The notes under the pieces: generated by a model | Databases searched by the model: none | The model's input: only the letters and a program-made list of their open reading frames with translations | What the model was told of the DNA's origin: nothing | Shown here: positions 11,331 to 19,032 of the stretch, one piece after another | Position numbering within the stretch: the first letter of the stretch is position 1 | Layout of the letters: each line of letters starts with the position of its first letter | Made by a program: the position numbers and the translations under genes | Virus record (IMG/VR): IMGVR_UViG_3300003322_000602 | Location: 1 to 57,861 of that record | Origin: a virus | Direction: 5' to 3' (one strand) | Length of the DNA: 57,861 nt

Positions 11331-11833
11331 TATTAAAAATGTTACACATATGTTTTAGCAACAAAAAAAAGTGTAACAAAATAAAATAATGAGAATAATT
11401 ATGTTAATTCAATTTGTTACGATGTTACATTTTAGCACGCATTGTATCTGCATAAATACAACAATAAGGCATATGCGTTTTTATTTGCTAACTAATTTCT
11501 TTAGCAATTTAGTAATGTTACATTTTTGCTTTTTTATTTTTTACTTCACGCAATGATAGTAAAAAAAGCGTAACATCGTAACATTTTAAATTAACTAACT
11601 GAGTCTTATAACCGAATCGATGTTACGGTTTGTAAAGAACAAGTGTAACACAAGTGTAACAAGCGTAACAAAATTGAGAATCAAATATTTAATTTTTTAC
11701 GACCAGACGATTAACTTAATGCGCATCTCTAACTATCATGCGTATTCGAAAATGTCAATCCAAGACACAACGGAATGGGAGAGTGAAGAATATATGTTAA
11801 AAGAAAATACTACGAGACAAGAAATCGCTCGAC
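11331..11833. other. Iteron-rich non-coding region, probable replication origin
   Basis: About 500 AT-rich bases without a convincing gene. They hold eleven copies of TGTTAC or its complement GTAACA at 11340, 11373, 11415, 11423, 11516, 11570, 11578, 11621, 11645, 11656 and 11665. Two copies are extended to an exact inverted pair, TGTTACAC (11340) and GTGTAACA (11371). Close pairs have 8 to 11 base spacing, about one helical turn. The place, right after the primase-helicase gene, fits an origin bound by an initiator. A short frame at 11620 is rejected as coding. Confidence 0.7.
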
Positions 11834-14361: not shown

Positions 14362-14388
14362 AACGCCCTCATTTCGGGGGCGTTTTTA
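14362..14388 (+). terminator. Rho-independent terminator
   Basis: Stem AACGCCC / GGGCGTT (extended by two more pairs), followed by TTTTATT. Ends transcription of the gene at 13993 just before promoter P2. Confidence 0.85.
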
Positions 14389-14421
14389 TTTAAAAATATT
14401 TTGAAAAAACTTTGAAAAATA

Positions 14422-14453
14422 TTTGGAATAACCAAAACTCGAGCGTATATTTG
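14422..14453 (+). promoter_or_regulatory. Bacteroidota-type promoter P2
   Basis: TTTG 14422-14425, 20-base spacer, TATATTTG 14446-14453. Shares ATTTGGA upstream and GTATnTTTG followed by ATATAT with P1 and P3. Transcription should begin near 14458. Confidence 0.88.
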
Positions 14454-14487
14454 ATATATGAAACAAGCACAAATAAAAACCTCAAAT

Positions 14488-14616
14488 ATGAAACACGCAC
14501 AACAGTCTAAACTCTCAACCACTCAGATTCTTTCCCTTATAGGGTTAACAATTCTCGTAGGCATTGCCGCCTACCTGATTAGTAGCGGCGCATGGTGGAA
14601 TCACGCCACCTTGTAA
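14488..14616 (+). CDS. Small membrane protein, 42 aa, upstream of hammerhead 1
   Basis: Residues about 13-33 (LSLIGLTILVGIAAYLI) form one membrane span, followed by SSGAWWNHATL. An in-frame ATG at 14458 would give 52 residues and sits where transcription should start, so a leaderless form is possible. The stop TAA (14614-14616) is one base before the ribozyme begins. Function unknown. Confidence 0.6.
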   Translation: MKHAQQSKLSTTQILSLIGLTILVGIAAYLISSGAWWNHATL

Positions 14617-14617
14617 A

Positions 14618-14717
14618 GTCTGCCTGACGAGGTCTAAATGACCGAAACCGGGGTAGGATCGCAGCCAGCACGGGCCATAGAGCGAAGGTGCCTGGGCAAG
14701 CGGCCCCGGTCGCAGAC
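14618..14717 (+). ncRNA. Type I hammerhead ribozyme (HHR1)
   Basis: All parts of a hammerhead are in order. Stem I is GTCTGC (14618-14623) with GCAGAC (14712-14717), six perfect pairs. The core CTGACGA is at 14624-14630. Stem II is GGTC / GACC (14631-14634, 14640-14643) with loop TAAAT. GAA is at 14644-14646. Stem III is ACCGGGG (14647-14653) with CCCCGGT (14704-14710), seven perfect pairs, and its interior holds a further CCAGCAC / GTGCCTGG helix. C17 is C14711, so cleavage is after the GTC triplet, between 14711 and 14712. The invariant bases are all present. It lies between the small membrane gene and the gene at 14746. Confidence 0.93.
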
Positions 14718-14745
14718 AAAATTCACTAACCCAACCTATTGCAAC

Positions 14746-14985
14746 ATGACCAACCGGCTACCAATCAAACGCATTTATAGCATATTGTCGAAAACAACAA
14801 TGCGTATTTATGTCCTTGTTTATACATCCACTATTGGCAAAAACAAGATACCGCTATACGCGCACATCGAACAGGATGCTGCATGCAGCCTGATCGCCGC
14901 CGCCATCGATAATGGTGTTATATCGGCTAACCTCGAATATTTCAATGGCTCCGTTTATATCGATGGGTTCAGCGAAGAAATTTAA
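14746..14985 (+). CDS. Hypothetical protein, 79 aa, downstream of hammerhead 1
   Basis: ATG 14746 is chosen because the longer frame from 14638 begins inside stem II of the ribozyme. Product begins MTNRLPIKRIYSILSKTTMR, then an alpha/beta stretch. Cleavage by HHR1 would leave a 34-base leader with a 5'-hydroxyl end. A second possible start is the later ATG in KTTMRIYVLVY. Function unknown. Confidence 0.6.
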   Translation: MTNRLPIKRIYSILSKTTMRIYVLVYTSTIGKNKIPLYAHIEQDAACSLIAAAIDNGVISANLEYFNGSVYIDGFSEEI

Positions 14986-15015
14986 AAAATATTTTAAAAA
15001 ATATTTTAAAAAATA

Positions 15016-15047
15016 TTTGTTAGTCTCAACTCTGCATCTTATATTTA
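15016..15047 (+). promoter_or_regulatory. Bacteroidota-type promoter, variant -7
   Basis: TTTG 15016-15019, 20-base spacer, TATATTTA 15040-15047 (last base differs from consensus). Preceded by three AAAAATATTT-like tracts from 14985. It stands 17 bases before the HTH gene at 15065. Confidence 0.7.
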
Positions 15048-15064
15048 CCTAAATTTTAAAAGCC

Positions 15065-15508
15065 ATGTCTACCACCACCAAGAAAAAGACCGCCCCCGCC
15101 ACAAAGGCGGCACCAACCCCCAAGACCGAAGCAAAACTTATTATCGAAAGCGACAAGCTTAGCCACAAAAAAGATGAGCCAAAAAAACCTATCAATGACT
15201 TCATACAGGAGATCATTGACAAGGCTGAGGAAAACGGCGATCTGGATGACGGCCAGCCATTGGGAAAGATTTTCCTGATCCTGAAGTGTTATATTGCTGG
15301 GTATAGCCGTTCGACGATTGTAAAGGCAGGATTCAACCGTTCGACTGTCTACCGTCAATGTATTGAATACGAAAAGCTACTGAAAGCTCCTGCAAAGGAA
15401 TACCAGGGTTTTCCTATCTTCGAGGCTCGCGTTGAAAGGATTATGAAGACGAAAAAAATTAGCAGACAACAGGCTATCAAATTGATATACGAAAAGGACT
15501 TGGAGTAG
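15065..15508 (+). CDS. Small HTH protein B
   Basis: The 147-residue product starts with an Ala/Pro/Lys/Thr-rich tail (MSTTTKKKTAPATKAAPTPK) like protein A at the junction. The HTH follows as IAGYSRSTIVKAGFNRSTVY, closely matching GFNKNTVYRQ in protein C and GYNKSTVGRQ in protein D. The C-terminal KKISRQQAIKLIYEK looks like a further helix. It has its own promoter and terminator, so it is a monocistronic regulator candidate. Confidence 0.75.
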   Translation: MSTTTKKKTAPATKAAPTPKTEAKLIIESDKLSHKKDEPKKPINDFIQEIIDKAEENGDLDDGQPLGKIFLILKCYIAGYSRSTIVKAGFNRSTVYRQCIEYEKLLKAPAKEYQGFPIFEARVERIMKTKKISRQQAIKLIYEKDLE

Positions 15509-15524
15509 GTGCATGGGCAAACAC

Positions 15525-15560
15525 GGGGGCGGGCAGTGGGATGCCTTGCCCCCAATTTTT
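15525..15560 (+). terminator. Rho-independent terminator
   Basis: GGGGGC (15525-15530) pairs with GCCCCC (15548-15553), then AATTTTT. Closes the HTH B gene. Confidence 0.75.
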
Positions 15561-15567
15561 AAAAGCA

Positions 15568-15717
15568 ATGATAAAAATTCCATTCATATTCGCATATAAA
15601 CCAGGCCAGCATCTAAGATACCCAGACGGATCACGGGTTGCATGGGTTGCCGCTTATACGTGGCATTCTGCTGCCGGTGTTACTATTGAAGAAAGGTATT
15701 ATATTCACCTTAATTAG
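15568..15717 (+). CDS. Hypothetical protein, 49 aa
   Basis: Short frame MIKIPFIFAYKPGQHLRY..., six bases before the next gene. Contains several aromatic residues and a YPDGSRVAW turn. No family recognised; read-through of the terminator or an unseen promoter would be needed. Confidence 0.45.
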   Translation: MIKIPFIFAYKPGQHLRYPDGSRVAWVAAYTWHSAAGVTIEERYYIHLN

Positions 15718-15722
15718 ATCGA

Positions 15723-16016
15723 ATGAAAGTAAAGATATTCATCTCCGGGCAAATAAACAGTGTCGCAACACTCGCCAGGGCCATCCCTATATATATTGAC
15801 GGCATATCGGTTACGTCTGACTATAAAGAATTTCGAATGGCTGGTACATATACATTCACCTGCCCCACTAAAGCCATCGCCAAAAAAGCCCTTTGGCAAG
15901 CGTTTGTATATCTTCGAAAAACATTGGATAACCCAAATGTCGGCAGTATGAGCGGATTGCGCTATGCTAAAGGATTGGCGCTGTATTGGGATGCCGGTGA
16001 GGCGAAAATAATTTAA
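15723..16016 (+). CDS. Hypothetical protein, 97 aa
   Basis: Begins MKVKIFISGQINSVATLARA; alpha/beta with a long central helix (AIAKKALWQAFVYLRK). No family recognised. Confidence 0.55.
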   Translation: MKVKIFISGQINSVATLARAIPIYIDGISVTSDYKEFRMAGTYTFTCPTKAIAKKALWQAFVYLRKTLDNPNVGSMSGLRYAKGLALYWDAGEAKII

Positions 16017-16032
16017 ACAAAACCCCTAAATA

Positions 16033-16200
16033 ATGAAAAAGTCAATTCTTTTCTTTCTAGTTATCAGTATTTTATTCGCATCATGTGTAGTTGACAGGGA
16101 TCATGTTGATCCATGCGCCTCGAACAAAAAAATGGTAGGCTATGGCCCCGGTGGCTGGGGGCGGCATCGTACCGGCAAAAATAATTTAAAAATATTTTGA
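16033..16200 (+). CDS. Small predicted lipoprotein, 55 aa
   Basis: Signal peptide MKKSILFFLVISILFASC with the lipidated Cys at residue 18, then a short Gly-rich tail (YGPGGWGRH). Its last codons run into the A/T tract of promoter P3. Confidence 0.6.
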   Translation: MKKSILFFLVISILFASCVVDRDHVDPCASNKKMVGYGPGGWGRHRTGKNNLKIF

Positions 16201-16206
16201 AAAATA

Positions 16207-16238
16207 TTTGGAAATTATGGAATGGTGTCGTATCTTTG
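16207..16238 (+). promoter_or_regulatory. Bacteroidota-type promoter P3
   Basis: TTTG 16207-16210, 20-base spacer, TATCTTTG 16231-16238, with the same flanks as P1 and P2 (ATTTGGA upstream, GTATCTTTGATATATC). Confidence 0.88.
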
Positions 16239-16259
16239 ATATATCAAAACAGCAAAGAT

Positions 16260-16460
16260 ATGACACAAGTAACATACACAACGCAGATAGGTAACGGCCC
16301 GGTTTTTTTAGAGTACTGGAATGGCGTTGAGTTCACAAGCATTCCAGCCACGGTAGCGCAGTTTAATCCGGTTACTATGTGGTCATGGCTCGAGGAAAAT
16401 GCACCGTTCATAGCGATGAATCCTAAGAGCAGAAATCTTAAAGTCGAAACAATAGGCTAA
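16260..16460 (+). CDS. Hypothetical protein, 66 aa, upstream of hammerhead 2
   Basis: Start 16260 lies just downstream of P3; the frame from 16197 begins upstream of the promoter and is rejected. Begins MTQVTYTTQIGNGPVFLEYW. Its TAA stop (16458-16460) is part of stem I of the second hammerhead, so terminating ribosomes must interfere with ribozyme folding. Function unknown. Confidence 0.65.
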   Translation: MTQVTYTTQIGNGPVFLEYWNGVEFTSIPATVAQFNPVTMWSWLEENAPFIAMNPKSRNLKVETIG

Positions 16461-16551
16461 CTGATGAGGCGTAATTCGCCGAAATGGGTCGCGATCTCTG
16501 GTTTGAGCGATTAAACGGTAGCGGGTTTAGTACGCGCCGCCCATATTAGTC
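16455..16551 (+). ncRNA. Type I hammerhead ribozyme (HHR2)
   Basis: Stem I is GGCTAA (16455-16460) with TTAGTC (16546-16551), one G-U pair. The core CTGATGA is at 16461-16467. Stem II is GGCG / CGCC (16468-16471, 16477-16480) with loop TAATT. GAA is at 16481-16483. Stem III is ATGGG (16484-16488) with CCCAT (16540-16544) and continues with GCG/CGC. H17 is A16545, so cleavage is after ATA, between 16545 and 16546. The stem III interior holds TAAAC / GTTTA. It separates the gene at 16260 from the HTH gene at 16583. Confidence 0.9.
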
Positions 16552-16563
16552 AATATCGACTAA
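16546..16563 (+). promoter_or_regulatory. Competitor hairpin at the cleaved 5' end of HHR2
   Basis: TTAGTC (16546-16551), the 3' strand of ribozyme stem I, can instead pair perfectly with GACTAA (16558-16563) across loop AATATC. After cleavage this would form a terminal hairpin on the mRNA of the HTH C gene. Confidence 0.65.
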
Positions 16564-16582
16564 AATCTAAAAATGTCCAACA

Positions 16583-16759
16583 ATGGCAACTAAGAAAAAT
16601 GCACAAAAAACCGTTAAGGGTTTTATTAGGACGCTGTCAAAGGGCATCGGAGTATGTGAAATCATCCGCAAGGCGACCAAGAAAGGTTTCACGCAAAAAG
16701 AGCTGATCGATGCCGGGTTCAATAAGAACACCGTGTACCGTCAAGCAGCCCTTGCCTAA
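16583..16759 (+). CDS. Small HTH protein C, 58 aa
   Basis: Short protein MATKKNAQKTVKGFIRTLSK... with the HTH KKGFTQKELIDAGFNKNTVY near its end. It is the minimal member of the four-protein family (A, B, D). It lies 37 bases downstream of the HHR2 cleavage site. Confidence 0.75.
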   Translation: MATKKNAQKTVKGFIRTLSKGIGVCEIIRKATKKGFTQKELIDAGFNKNTVYRQAALA

Positions 16760-16803
16760 CGACTGCTAATATCCATCCGTAGGATAATATCCTTAAACAG
16801 CCA

Positions 16804-16832
16804 TCGGCAGGGTATCAGCCGAGAAATGATAC
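16804..16832 (+). ncRNA. Predicted H-type pseudoknot
   Basis: Stem 1 TCGGC (16804-16808) / GCCGA (16818-16822); stem 2 GTATCA (16812-16817) / TGATAC (16827-16832); loop AGG and loop GAAA. All eleven pairs are Watson-Crick and the stems interleave. A hairpin AGCGG / CCGCT (16834-16838, 16845-16849) follows directly. No known riboswitch class was matched. Confidence 0.6.
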
Positions 16833-16863
16833 GAGCGGACTAAACCGCTTAAACAAAATGGTT

Positions 16864-16936
16864 TGCCTTGTACGTATAATTGGTATTACGCCCAGCGAGA
16901 TGGCTGGGGATGCAGGTTCAATTCCTGTCGGGGCAG
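16864..16936 (+). ncRNA. tRNA-like cloverleaf with abnormal anticodon loop
   Basis: 73 bases fold as acceptor TGCCTTG/CGGGGCA, D stem CGTA/TACG with GG in the loop, anticodon stem CCAGC/GCTGG, and T arm GCAGG-TTCAATT-CCTGT with a canonical T loop. The anticodon loop is GAGATG (six bases, or eight if the inner C-G pair opens) and lacks U33, and no CCA is encoded. It may be a degenerate tRNA, a tRNA mimic, or an unusual tRNA. Confidence 0.55.
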
Positions 16937-16956
16937 CAAATCTAAACTCAAAAACC

Positions 16957-17220
16957 ATGACAAAGCAACAGCACGAAAGGGCGTCTCAGATCATTTCTGA
17001 GCTCAATACATTGCGTGACCACAAGAAGCATATTGAAAATATGATTAATCATAAAGACGATTCTTTTCCTGTAAGATTGAAAGTCAGTAGATATAATTGG
17101 AGCGATGCCCCATTATCGGACATTTTTTTACCGATACGAATCGATATGATCGTAGATTTTTATCTTTCTCGAGTCGATGCAGAAATAGCCAAACTTCATG
17201 CCGAATACGATGCCTTGTAA
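16957..17220 (+). CDS. Hypothetical protein, 87 aa
   Basis: Start 16957 is chosen because the longer frame from 16858 runs through the tRNA-like element. Begins MTKQQHERASQIISELNTLR; two helices flank a central strand region. Function unknown. Confidence 0.6.
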   Translation: MTKQQHERASQIISELNTLRDHKKHIENMINHKDDSFPVRLKVSRYNWSDAPLSDIFLPIRIDMIVDFYLSRVDAEIAKLHAEYDAL

Positions 17221-17237
17221 TCCTCAAACCGCATATC

Positions 17238-17504
17238 ATGTCTATTTTCCTAATGAACATTTCGTGTATTGGCATCTTAGCCGGTGTCGTATATATACTT
17301 CGGCGGGCCAGATTGCCGAAACGAACCAAACCACATAGTCTTACAGACTGGCCCTGGCCCAATACCCCCGCTTACACGATCAGCCAGCAACTTAAACGGC
17401 ATCATCGTCGCATGATCGCTTTATTTTGGTTATCCGCAATTCTTTTCCTATCTTTCATCTTATTCATAGGATACAAAATCATCTTCGTATGGCAATTACA
17501 TTAA
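17238..17504 (+). CDS. Small membrane protein, 88 aa
   Basis: Two membrane spans: residues about 1-20 (FLMNISCIGILAGVVYIL) and about 57-82 (IALFWLSAILFLSFILFIG), with a basic loop between. Its end overlaps the next gene. Function unknown; a holin-like role cannot be excluded. Confidence 0.55.
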   Translation: MSIFLMNISCIGILAGVVYILRRARLPKRTKPHSLTDWPWPNTPAYTISQQLKRHHRRMIALFWLSAILFLSFILFIGYKIIFVWQLH

Positions 17505-17980
17505 CGATGTCCCAGAATGATGCAATCATTCGAATATTAAAAACGGATGATACGCCCGATCTAACCCAGCTATCGCAACGCATTTGCGCCGAAGCAAGGG
17601 TGGATGAACATGTTGCAGAGGCATATATACGATCCTGGCGGTATAACCACGGGCAGGGAGGTGCAATAGGTAGGGCGCTGGCCGCTTACAATGAACGAAA
17701 TCCAGATGCGGCTAATACAACCACAACATCGAGTATAAAAAAAGATCATGTCGTTATAGATATTGATGAAAAACATGGTGAACTTCCTCAATCGGTCGTA
17801 AAAGAAATGGTTGCCGCCTGCGACAAGATTGATCCCATTCGCATCCCTAGTGGTATCTGTGGTGAAATAGTTCGCCTTCACATCTCAGGTAAATCAAACA
17901 AGGAAATTATAGCAATGGGCTATAATAAGTCGACGGTAGGTCGCCAGGTATCGGAGTACAAAAAACGTTGCGGTGCCTGA
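17489..17980 (+). CDS. HTH protein D
   Basis: The 163-residue product has an N-terminal helical domain (SQNDAIIRILKTDDTPDLTQ), an Asn/Thr-rich linker and a C-terminal HTH, HISGKSNKEIIAMGYNKSTV, of the same family as proteins A, B and C. Start 17489 overlaps the membrane gene by 16 bases; the frame from 17426 is rejected. Confidence 0.7.
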   Translation: MAITLTMSQNDAIIRILKTDDTPDLTQLSQRICAEARVDEHVAEAYIRSWRYNHGQGGAIGRALAAYNERNPDAANTTTTSSIKKDHVVIDIDEKHGELPQSVVKEMVAACDKIDPIRIPSGICGEIVRLHISGKSNKEIIAMGYNKSTVGRQVSEYKKRCGA

Positions 17981-18206
17981 CGAATATCTCATACAGGTTT
18001 ATAGCATCGTTACGTCGAATCCCTCTGCCCCGCTACGATGGTGTCTTAGCATCAGGCCCGGCGGCGATGGATGGGAGGTATACGAAGATCATGACGGCAA
18101 GACGTCATTCCCTCAGCCGATGTCCGGAGGTACAACGCCAGGGGAAGCATTGGATAATTTTCTTCATAGCGAACAGGATTTAGTAAACAAATACGCTTCC
18201 AAATAA
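17973..18206 (+). CDS. Hypothetical protein, 77 aa (GTG start)
   Basis: Starts at GTG 17973, overlapping the previous stop. Residues PGGDGWEVYEDHDGKTSF and GGTTPGEALDNFL look like a small beta-rich fold with a C-terminal helix. No family recognised. Confidence 0.5.
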   Translation: MPDEYLIQVYSIVTSNPSAPLRWCLSIRPGGDGWEVYEDHDGKTSFPQPMSGGTTPGEALDNFLHSEQDLVNKYASK

Positions 18207-18250
18207 CTTCTCATAACTACACATATTTAAAAAAATATTAGCTTTGTTTT

Positions 18251-18439
18251 ATGGTCAATGACAAACGAAAGAAAAATCAGGGTCGGCCTCCGGCAGGGCC
18301 AAACAAAAAGATTCCTATCACTATCTACGAAAGCAGAGAGGACATAAAGGAACTGGGCGGCATGGATGCGGTTAGGAAAATGTTGAAGGAGAAAATAAAT
18401 AACGACCTTTATAGAATAAGAAAAACCTGTTTGACGTGA
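18251..18439 (+). CDS. Small basic hypothetical protein, 62 aa
   Basis: Begins MVNDKRKKNQGRPPAGPNKK, a DNA-contacting kind of basic tail, then PITIYESREDIKELGG and a helix, as in ribbon-helix-helix proteins. A TAGCTTTG sequence stands at 18239 but lacks an upstream TTTG. Confidence 0.5.
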   Translation: MVNDKRKKNQGRPPAGPNKKIPITIYESREDIKELGGMDAVRKMLKEKINNDLYRIRKTCLT

Positions 18440-18705
18440 AAAAAGTTCGCTGTATCAATACAATGAAATGGGGCACGGATCATCCGCACCCGCCACAGCT
18501 TACCCGTTGCTATACCCCCATTGCTATTGTCATGGGGCCGAATGGCGATCCTTGTTACCTGTTTGTAGAATATTTGTATCATACAGACGGATATACGCAC
18601 ATATGGAGCTGCGATTGTTTCGAGGACGATATAGATGGCGCTGACTATGGGGTATTTGTATCTGCATGCGAAGACGTTGACGAGTTTCCAATGTGTTTGA
18701 ATTAA
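18436..18705 (+). CDS. Cys-containing hypothetical protein, 89 aa (GTG start)
   Basis: GTG start overlapping the upstream TGA. Seven cysteines spread through the protein and an acidic C-terminal half (WSCDCFEDDIDGADYGVFV). No family recognised. Confidence 0.5.
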   Translation: MKKVRCINTMKWGTDHPHPPQLTRCYTPIAIVMGPNGDPCYLFVEYLYHTDGYTHIWSCDCFEDDIDGADYGVFVSACEDVDEFPMCLN

Positions 18706-18716
18706 AATAACCAAAT

Positions 18717-18971
18717 ATGAAAAGAGTATTTACCGTTGGCGAACAGGTAACATGCGTCAACAATCAACCTCTTGAAGGAAAAAGGATTGCTCCTCCATTG
18801 ATCGTACGACATCGGTACAAAGTAGAAGAAATATTTATCGATAAAGAAGGCAATCAGCACTTACATGTAGGATTGAAATCGCACTACAGCTATATAACCA
18901 GCTATGAAACTGGAGAGGAGCTTCCTGATGGCGACAAAAAACATTGGTGCCATCCGTCGAGATTTGAGTAA
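18717..18971 (+). CDS. Hypothetical protein, 84 aa
   Basis: Begins MKRVFTVGEQVTCVNNQPLE, with the strand spacing of a small SH3-like barrel (VGEQVTCV ... RYKVEEIFID). Last gene before a terminator. Confidence 0.55.
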   Translation: MKRVFTVGEQVTCVNNQPLEGKRIAPPLIVRHRYKVEEIFIDKEGNQHLHVGLKSHYSYITSYETGEELPDGDKKHWCHPSRFE

Positions 18972-19002
18972 ATTTTTTTTATCACAGGCGTTCAAAATCC
19001 GC

Positions 19003-19032
19003 AACCCGGTATTTCTATATCGGGTTTATTTT
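19003..19032 (+). terminator. Probable rho-independent terminator
   Basis: AACCCG (19003-19008) pairs with CGGGTT (19021-19026), followed by TATTTT. Closes the gene at 18717. Confidence 0.6.

Follow-up and report, generated by a model that had tools for sequence, protein, structure and literature searches.

Prophage hammerhead ribozymes flank single genes or short gene blocks, with several copies per element, and have been proposed to process long phage transcripts between cistrons; the Agrobacterium copies cleave in vitro and in E. coli (Perreault et al. 2011, PMC3088659). Near the genes of Mu-like phages, too, bacterial hammerhead and twister ribozymes are enriched (PMC10085705). The reason for many bacterial and phage hammerheads is an open question. 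Here we describe two hammerheads, HHR1 and HHR2, from a viral sequence of 57,861 nucleotides (IMG/VR record IMGVR_UViG_3300003322_000602; hereafter the window, meaning this whole stretch). They have the same core and open stem I as the prophage hammerheads of PMC3088659, but differ from them in a stem III of 61-64 nt that is internally structured and that, in HHR1, resembles a terminator hairpin. Neither "terminator" nor "mRNA stab" occurs in the main text of that paper. Judged against the open-licence literature, the ribozyme type is already known, and what is new is the terminator-like stem III together with the comparison of gene junctions, which offers a testable answer to the open question: the ribozyme as an alternative maker of mRNA 3' ends. 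A preliminary description of HHR1 had called its context notable; hammerheads at phage gene junctions are in fact already known and common.

Table 1. Features at the two hammerhead junctions (window coordinates)
Feature	Position	Strand	Evidence
Promoter-like site, Bacteroidota-type (TTTG...TATATTTG), upstream of microprotein	14422..14453	+	pattern search
Membrane microprotein ORF, 42 aa (MKHAQQSKLSTTQILSLIGLTILVGIAAYLISSGAWWNHATL), upstream cistron	14488..14616	+	sequence
HHR1, complete type I hammerhead ribozyme	14618..14717	+	descriptor scan, null tests, covariance model, MFE fold
HHR1 stem III, 64 nt, terminator-like architecture P1-UA-CGC...GCGG-P1'	14647..14710	+	local alignment, pattern search
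79-aa ORF downstream of HHR1	14746..14985	+	ORF call; no family match
VYRQ1, small protein with ...GFNRSTVYRQ motif, orthologous-junction marker	15065..15508	+	tblastn
HHR2 with extended stem I: distal helix AGTCGA/TCGACT past internal loop AACAATA/AATA	16442..16561	+	fold
HHR2, second type I hammerhead	16455..16551	+	descriptor scan, null tests, covariance model R1
VYRQ2, 58-aa protein downstream of HHR2	16583..16759	+	orthologue at L213:13808-13996

Structure of the two ribozymes

The preliminary description had placed at 14618-14717 a complete type I hammerhead with all elements in order, cut between 14711 and 14712 and sited between a membrane microprotein gene and the next gene, and our analysis bears this out. 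Stem I is GTCTGC (14618-14623) with GCAGAC (14712-14717), six pairs and open-ended; it encloses the core CTGACGA (14624-14630; CUGACGA in RNA) and stem II (GGTC/GACC, four pairs, loop TAAAT, 14631-14643), which is followed by GAA. The ends of stem III (14647-14654 and 14703-14710) form the seven Watson-Crick pairs that had been reported, plus one G-U. Cleavage is predicted at 14711^14712, with C14711 as H17, which is not G and adjoins stem III. The upstream stop codon ends at 14616 and the downstream ATG lies at 14746. The earlier account of the ribozyme itself thus stands; what it overlooked is the long stem III and the likeness of that stem to a terminator hairpin in a related phage.

HHR2 consists of stem I GGCUAA/UUAGUC, core CUGAUGA, stem II GGCG-UAAUU-CGCC and a 61-nt stem III, with six, four and six pairs in helices I, II and III, respectively, and a predicted cut at 16545^16546 (H17 = A16545). 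Common to both ribozymes are the CUGANGA and GAAA core with the A15.1-U16.1 pair (A14647-U14710 in HHR1), an A flanking stem I on either side and a TNANT loop II, which bear on a putative tertiary contact between loop I and loop II. The flanking A is present in 174/179 and 162/179 phage copies for the two sides, among the matches listed. In stem III, HHR1 and HHR2 differ in sequence.

Chance does not readily produce such structures. The full descriptor matched the window twice, at HHR1 and HHR2, whereas 150 dinucleotide-shuffled versions of the window gave no match. When the HHR1 core was given random flanks, 1 of 20,000 trials produced at least six pairs in each of stems I and III. The core motif by itself is not significant in the window (4 observed, 3.5 expected). 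The unconstrained minimum-energy fold of HHR1 is the hammerhead (-43.3 kcal/mol, z -2.76). For HHR2 the hammerhead fold lies within 0.3 kcal/mol of an alternative minimum-energy fold, making the RNA bistable in prediction, and HHR2 is therefore less certain than HHR1. Self-cleavage is predicted for both.

Covariance-model searches

At the gathering score, Rfam release 15 calls neither HHR1 nor HHR2 a hammerhead. The best permissive match for HHR1 is HH9 (12.6 bits, E 7.7), and both sequences are unmatched by Hammerhead_1 (RF00163), even at E 10, and by RAGATH-1-hammerhead (RF03152). Hammerhead_1 describes the same permutation, and canonical phage relatives reach up to 30 bits with it, but it models 45 positions and a short stem III, unlike that of HHR1 and HHR2; several phage hammerheads match RAGATH-1-hammerhead weakly, at 23-30 bits against a cut-off of 56. 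Rfam at the gathering score likewise misses every hammerhead in 15 loci rich in the canonical short-stem phage type; these hammerheads surface under Hammerhead_1 and RAGATH-1 at a permissive threshold, below the cut-offs. Since Rfam is insensitive to the phage class and misses even canonical copies, its failure to call HHR1 and HHR2 does not refute them.

We have also produced a covariance model, R1, from 49 hammerheads of other phages. It retrieves HHR1 with 38.7 bits (E 5.6e-8) and HHR2 with 33.6 bits (E 1.4e-6), scores that stem mainly from core and stem II because the R1 alignment misplaces stem III, with its long inserts. These are the only matches of R1 in the window, the next best reaching 11.5 bits. 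The covariance search that had been put forward as a check on HHR1, with the lack of a hit named as refuting it, is thus negative with Rfam at the gathering score and positive with our own model.

Phage hammerheads as a class

A 15-base pattern (core plus stem II loop) matched at least 120 stretches in IMG/VR. Stems I and III with H17 are completed in at least 113 of 120 distinct matches, among the matches listed, as compared to 59/2,400 (2.5%) in a null with swapped flanks; a scan of reversed sequences found no hammerheads. We used the swapped-flank null and set helix covariation aside, as the sequences had been selected for pairing. Stem III is mostly 10-30 nt long in other phages, as compared to 64 nt in HHR1 and 61 nt in HHR2.

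These ribozymes occupy a characteristic place. Among the matches listed, 150 of the 162 phage copies with enough flank have an open-frame stop codon close to where stem I begins, 138/162 have an ATG within 120 nt past the cut (mostly at 18-45 nt), and 128/162 (79%) have stop and start together, compared with 8.5% of random positions. Internal stops at +3, +7 and +17 are partly inherent in the motif, which makes the spacing to the start codon the cleaner evidence. HHR1 and HHR2 both obey this stop-then-start layout. The microprotein ORF ends one base short of HHR1 stem I (stop codon 14614-14616, at -4), and 34 nt separate the cut from the next ATG; stem I of HHR2 overlaps the stop codon (16458-16460, at +3) of an ORF at 16260-16460, and the cut lies 37 nt from the VYRQ2 ATG (16583). 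Such placement fits inter-cistron mRNA processing.

Two other kinds of RNA were encountered among the phage contigs. L126, L136, L141 and L157 carry half-hammerheads, with core and stem II, for which stem III, H17 and a stem I partner were not found; several lie just 5' of a start codon. One contig has a type-P3 twister ribozyme (L094:174-241) ∼0.4 kb upstream of its hammerhead.

Comparison with related phages

Of the relatives found, G011 (IMGVR 3300050821_007131; locus L213) is the nearest, with a terminase and a primase 73% and 48% identical to those of the window. The marker VYRQ1 has tblastn matches at L213:11931-12350 (44%) and, in a further relative, at L220:16135-16512 (48%), and a short hydrophobic ORF takes the equivalent place of the microprotein in G011 (L213, about 11683-11796); a Pfam search with the microprotein gave no match. 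Between this ORF and the VYRQ1 gene, G011 carries no hammerhead but the hairpin AACCGGGTACGCGAAAGCGGCCCGGTTTTTT (L213:11824-11858), which is U-tailed and terminator-like. A second G011 hairpin, CGGGGTAGGTTCGC...AAGCGGCCCCCGTTTTTT (L213:13370-13456), lies ∼1.5 kb beyond the junction.

HHR1 stem III aligns over its full length with L213:13373-13446 (local alignment score 30, reached by 1 of 300 shuffles). It has in common with both G011 hairpins an outer GC helix, a 5' UA bulge and an inner CGC/GCG; the likeness is mostly at the two ends of the hairpin, and the junction hairpin provides only the short common core. In all three a 3' G adjoins the outer helix. The G011 hairpins then finish in a U-run and have no hammerhead core, whereas HHR1 has H17 and stem I and no U-run. 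A pattern made from the stem III/G011 pair matched two sites in 2.9 million viral contigs: G011 itself, and a chance site inside coding sequence (L214).

The G011 counterpart of HHR2 is a hammerhead-like RNA before VYRQ2 (L213:13622-13779), which carries between A9 and stem II a 25-nt insert predicted to base-pair with CUGA; this RNA may be either decayed or switched. Neither hammerhead was found at the corresponding junctions of L220, so this phage group can do without the hammerheads. A scan of the terminase relatives L005-L084 with R1 returned no hammerheads, and the searches for relatives via VYRQ1 and via a single-sequence primase confirmed none; L217 proved to be an unrelated phage with VYRQ-type proteins and no hammerhead.

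A structured RNA serves as stem III in another phage hammerhead. At L185:1671-1761, the int-alpA RNA (RF02996; 45.2 bits, cut-off 35.8) forms stem III of a complete hammerhead, the outer helix of this structured, U-tailed RNA being the hammerhead stem. The int-alpA consensus ends with a U-run, and L185 has H17 and stem I in place of the U-tail. Only the principle is common to this case and to HHR1 and HHR2, whose stems III do not match int-alpA RNA; RF02996 does not match HHR1 stem III in a search of 14400-15100 at E 10. A second candidate of this type, L218, turned out to be a plain short hammerhead, and the combined pattern gave no further case in viral contigs and none in 84,980 bacterial and archaeal genomes.

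Proposed function and alternative explanations

Type I hammerhead cleavage leaves the ribozyme body on the upstream fragment and yields a 5'-OH and a cyclic phosphate. Our preferred reading, which we hold with a probability of roughly 0.7, is that HHR1 and HHR2 punctuate one long phage transcript, with HHR1 doing the 3'-end job of a terminator. Each hammerhead would fold during transcription and cut once between two cistrons. The upstream mRNA would keep stems II and III as a capped 3' end, finishing in a 2',3'-cyclic phosphate one base past stem III, and the downstream mRNA would begin with a 5'-OH and a leader of 34-37 nt. Because the body stays upstream, the microprotein mRNA would end one base past a stable hairpin, much like a terminated transcript. 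HHR1 stem III appears to be built on a terminator-type hairpin, and the nearest relative carries a U-tailed, terminator-like hairpin at the same junction; the ribozyme would form the mRNA 3' end in the terminator's stead while transcription runs on into the next gene. Our scan of the window recognised no plus-strand terminator-like site from 14384 to 19003, so that HHR1 and HHR2 are the sole 3'-end-forming elements recognised there. The stop-to-start siting of more than 100 phage copies supports the 3'-end reading broadly. From one relative and one analogue (L185), we infer that HHR1 arose from, or gave way to, a terminator hairpin at this junction. A wider proposition falls a little short of an even bet: that, at the same gene junctions, intrinsic terminators and hammerheads take each other's place among phages, a terminator-type hairpin or another structured one being wrapped as stem III, the ribozyme taking over 3'-end formation and transcription reading through.

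The strongest competitor, to which we give appreciable weight while leaning against it, is that these are ordinary type I phage hammerheads in which stem III expanded neutrally and came to resemble a terminator by convergence on GC-rich hairpins. The shared sequence is indeed GC-rich, one shuffle did equal the alignment score, HHR2 stem III shows no clear similarity to L213 sequence (19 of 300 shuffles as good), and about 4% of phage hammerheads, among the matches listed, have long inserts. Against this explanation stand the long stem III (61, 64 and 97 nt) of every hammerhead or remnant in this lineage, three in all, the short version of the stem III hairpin at the orthologous junction, and a pair pattern that, in all the contigs searched, singles out the nearest relative apart from one chance site.

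Decay or a chance motif, leaving the RNAs inactive, would agree with the CUGA-pairing insert of the G011 counterpart, yet HHR1 and HHR2 have intact cores and all helices, and the nulls are near zero; we consider this the least probable explanation. Hardly more credible is a retrozyme-like excision of the 1,834-nt RNA 14712-16545 by both hammerheads, followed by ligation to a circle. Two type I hammerheads on the same strand do bracket a gene block, and by established chemistry their cuts would give the 5'-OH and cyclic phosphate ends that a circle requires; against it stand promoter-like sites within the block, the single hammerhead of many phages, and the fact that such products were sought and not found in prophages (Perreault et al. 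2011, PMC3088659). A natural aptazyme, in which the 61-64 nt stem III would bind a ligand or protein and switch cleavage, is unlikely too, if less so than the circle. Its attractions are structured inserts attached directly to the catalytic core, as in engineered allosteric hammerheads, and the predicted bistability of HHR2, with one fold a hammerhead and the other not. The window has no match to an Rfam riboswitch or aptamer, however, and the differing stems III of HHR1 and HHR2 speak against an aptamer in common, with homologues too few for covariation.

Gene neighbourhood

The promoter-like site upstream of the microprotein gains support from where it lies and from comparable sites at 15016 and 16207; the promoter pattern alone is weak, with 11 matches in the window as compared to 6.8 expected by chance. 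VYRQ1, VYRQ2 and a third protein of the window (17426-17980) have in common a GFNxxTVYRQ-type, helix-turn-helix-like motif, and small paralogues of VYRQ-type proteins are present in relatives. A non-coding stretch of hairpin-like repeats lies 3' of VYRQ2 (16760-16860), with counterparts at L213:13997-14102, L220:18473-18740 and L006:355-545, and may be a separate RNA. Close to VYRQ genes we also observe tRNA-like RNAs with an unreadable anticodon, one in the window (16864-16936; 34 bits with the Rfam tRNA model, no ARAGORN call) and one at L220:16772-16858, which ARAGORN reports as "tRNA-???".
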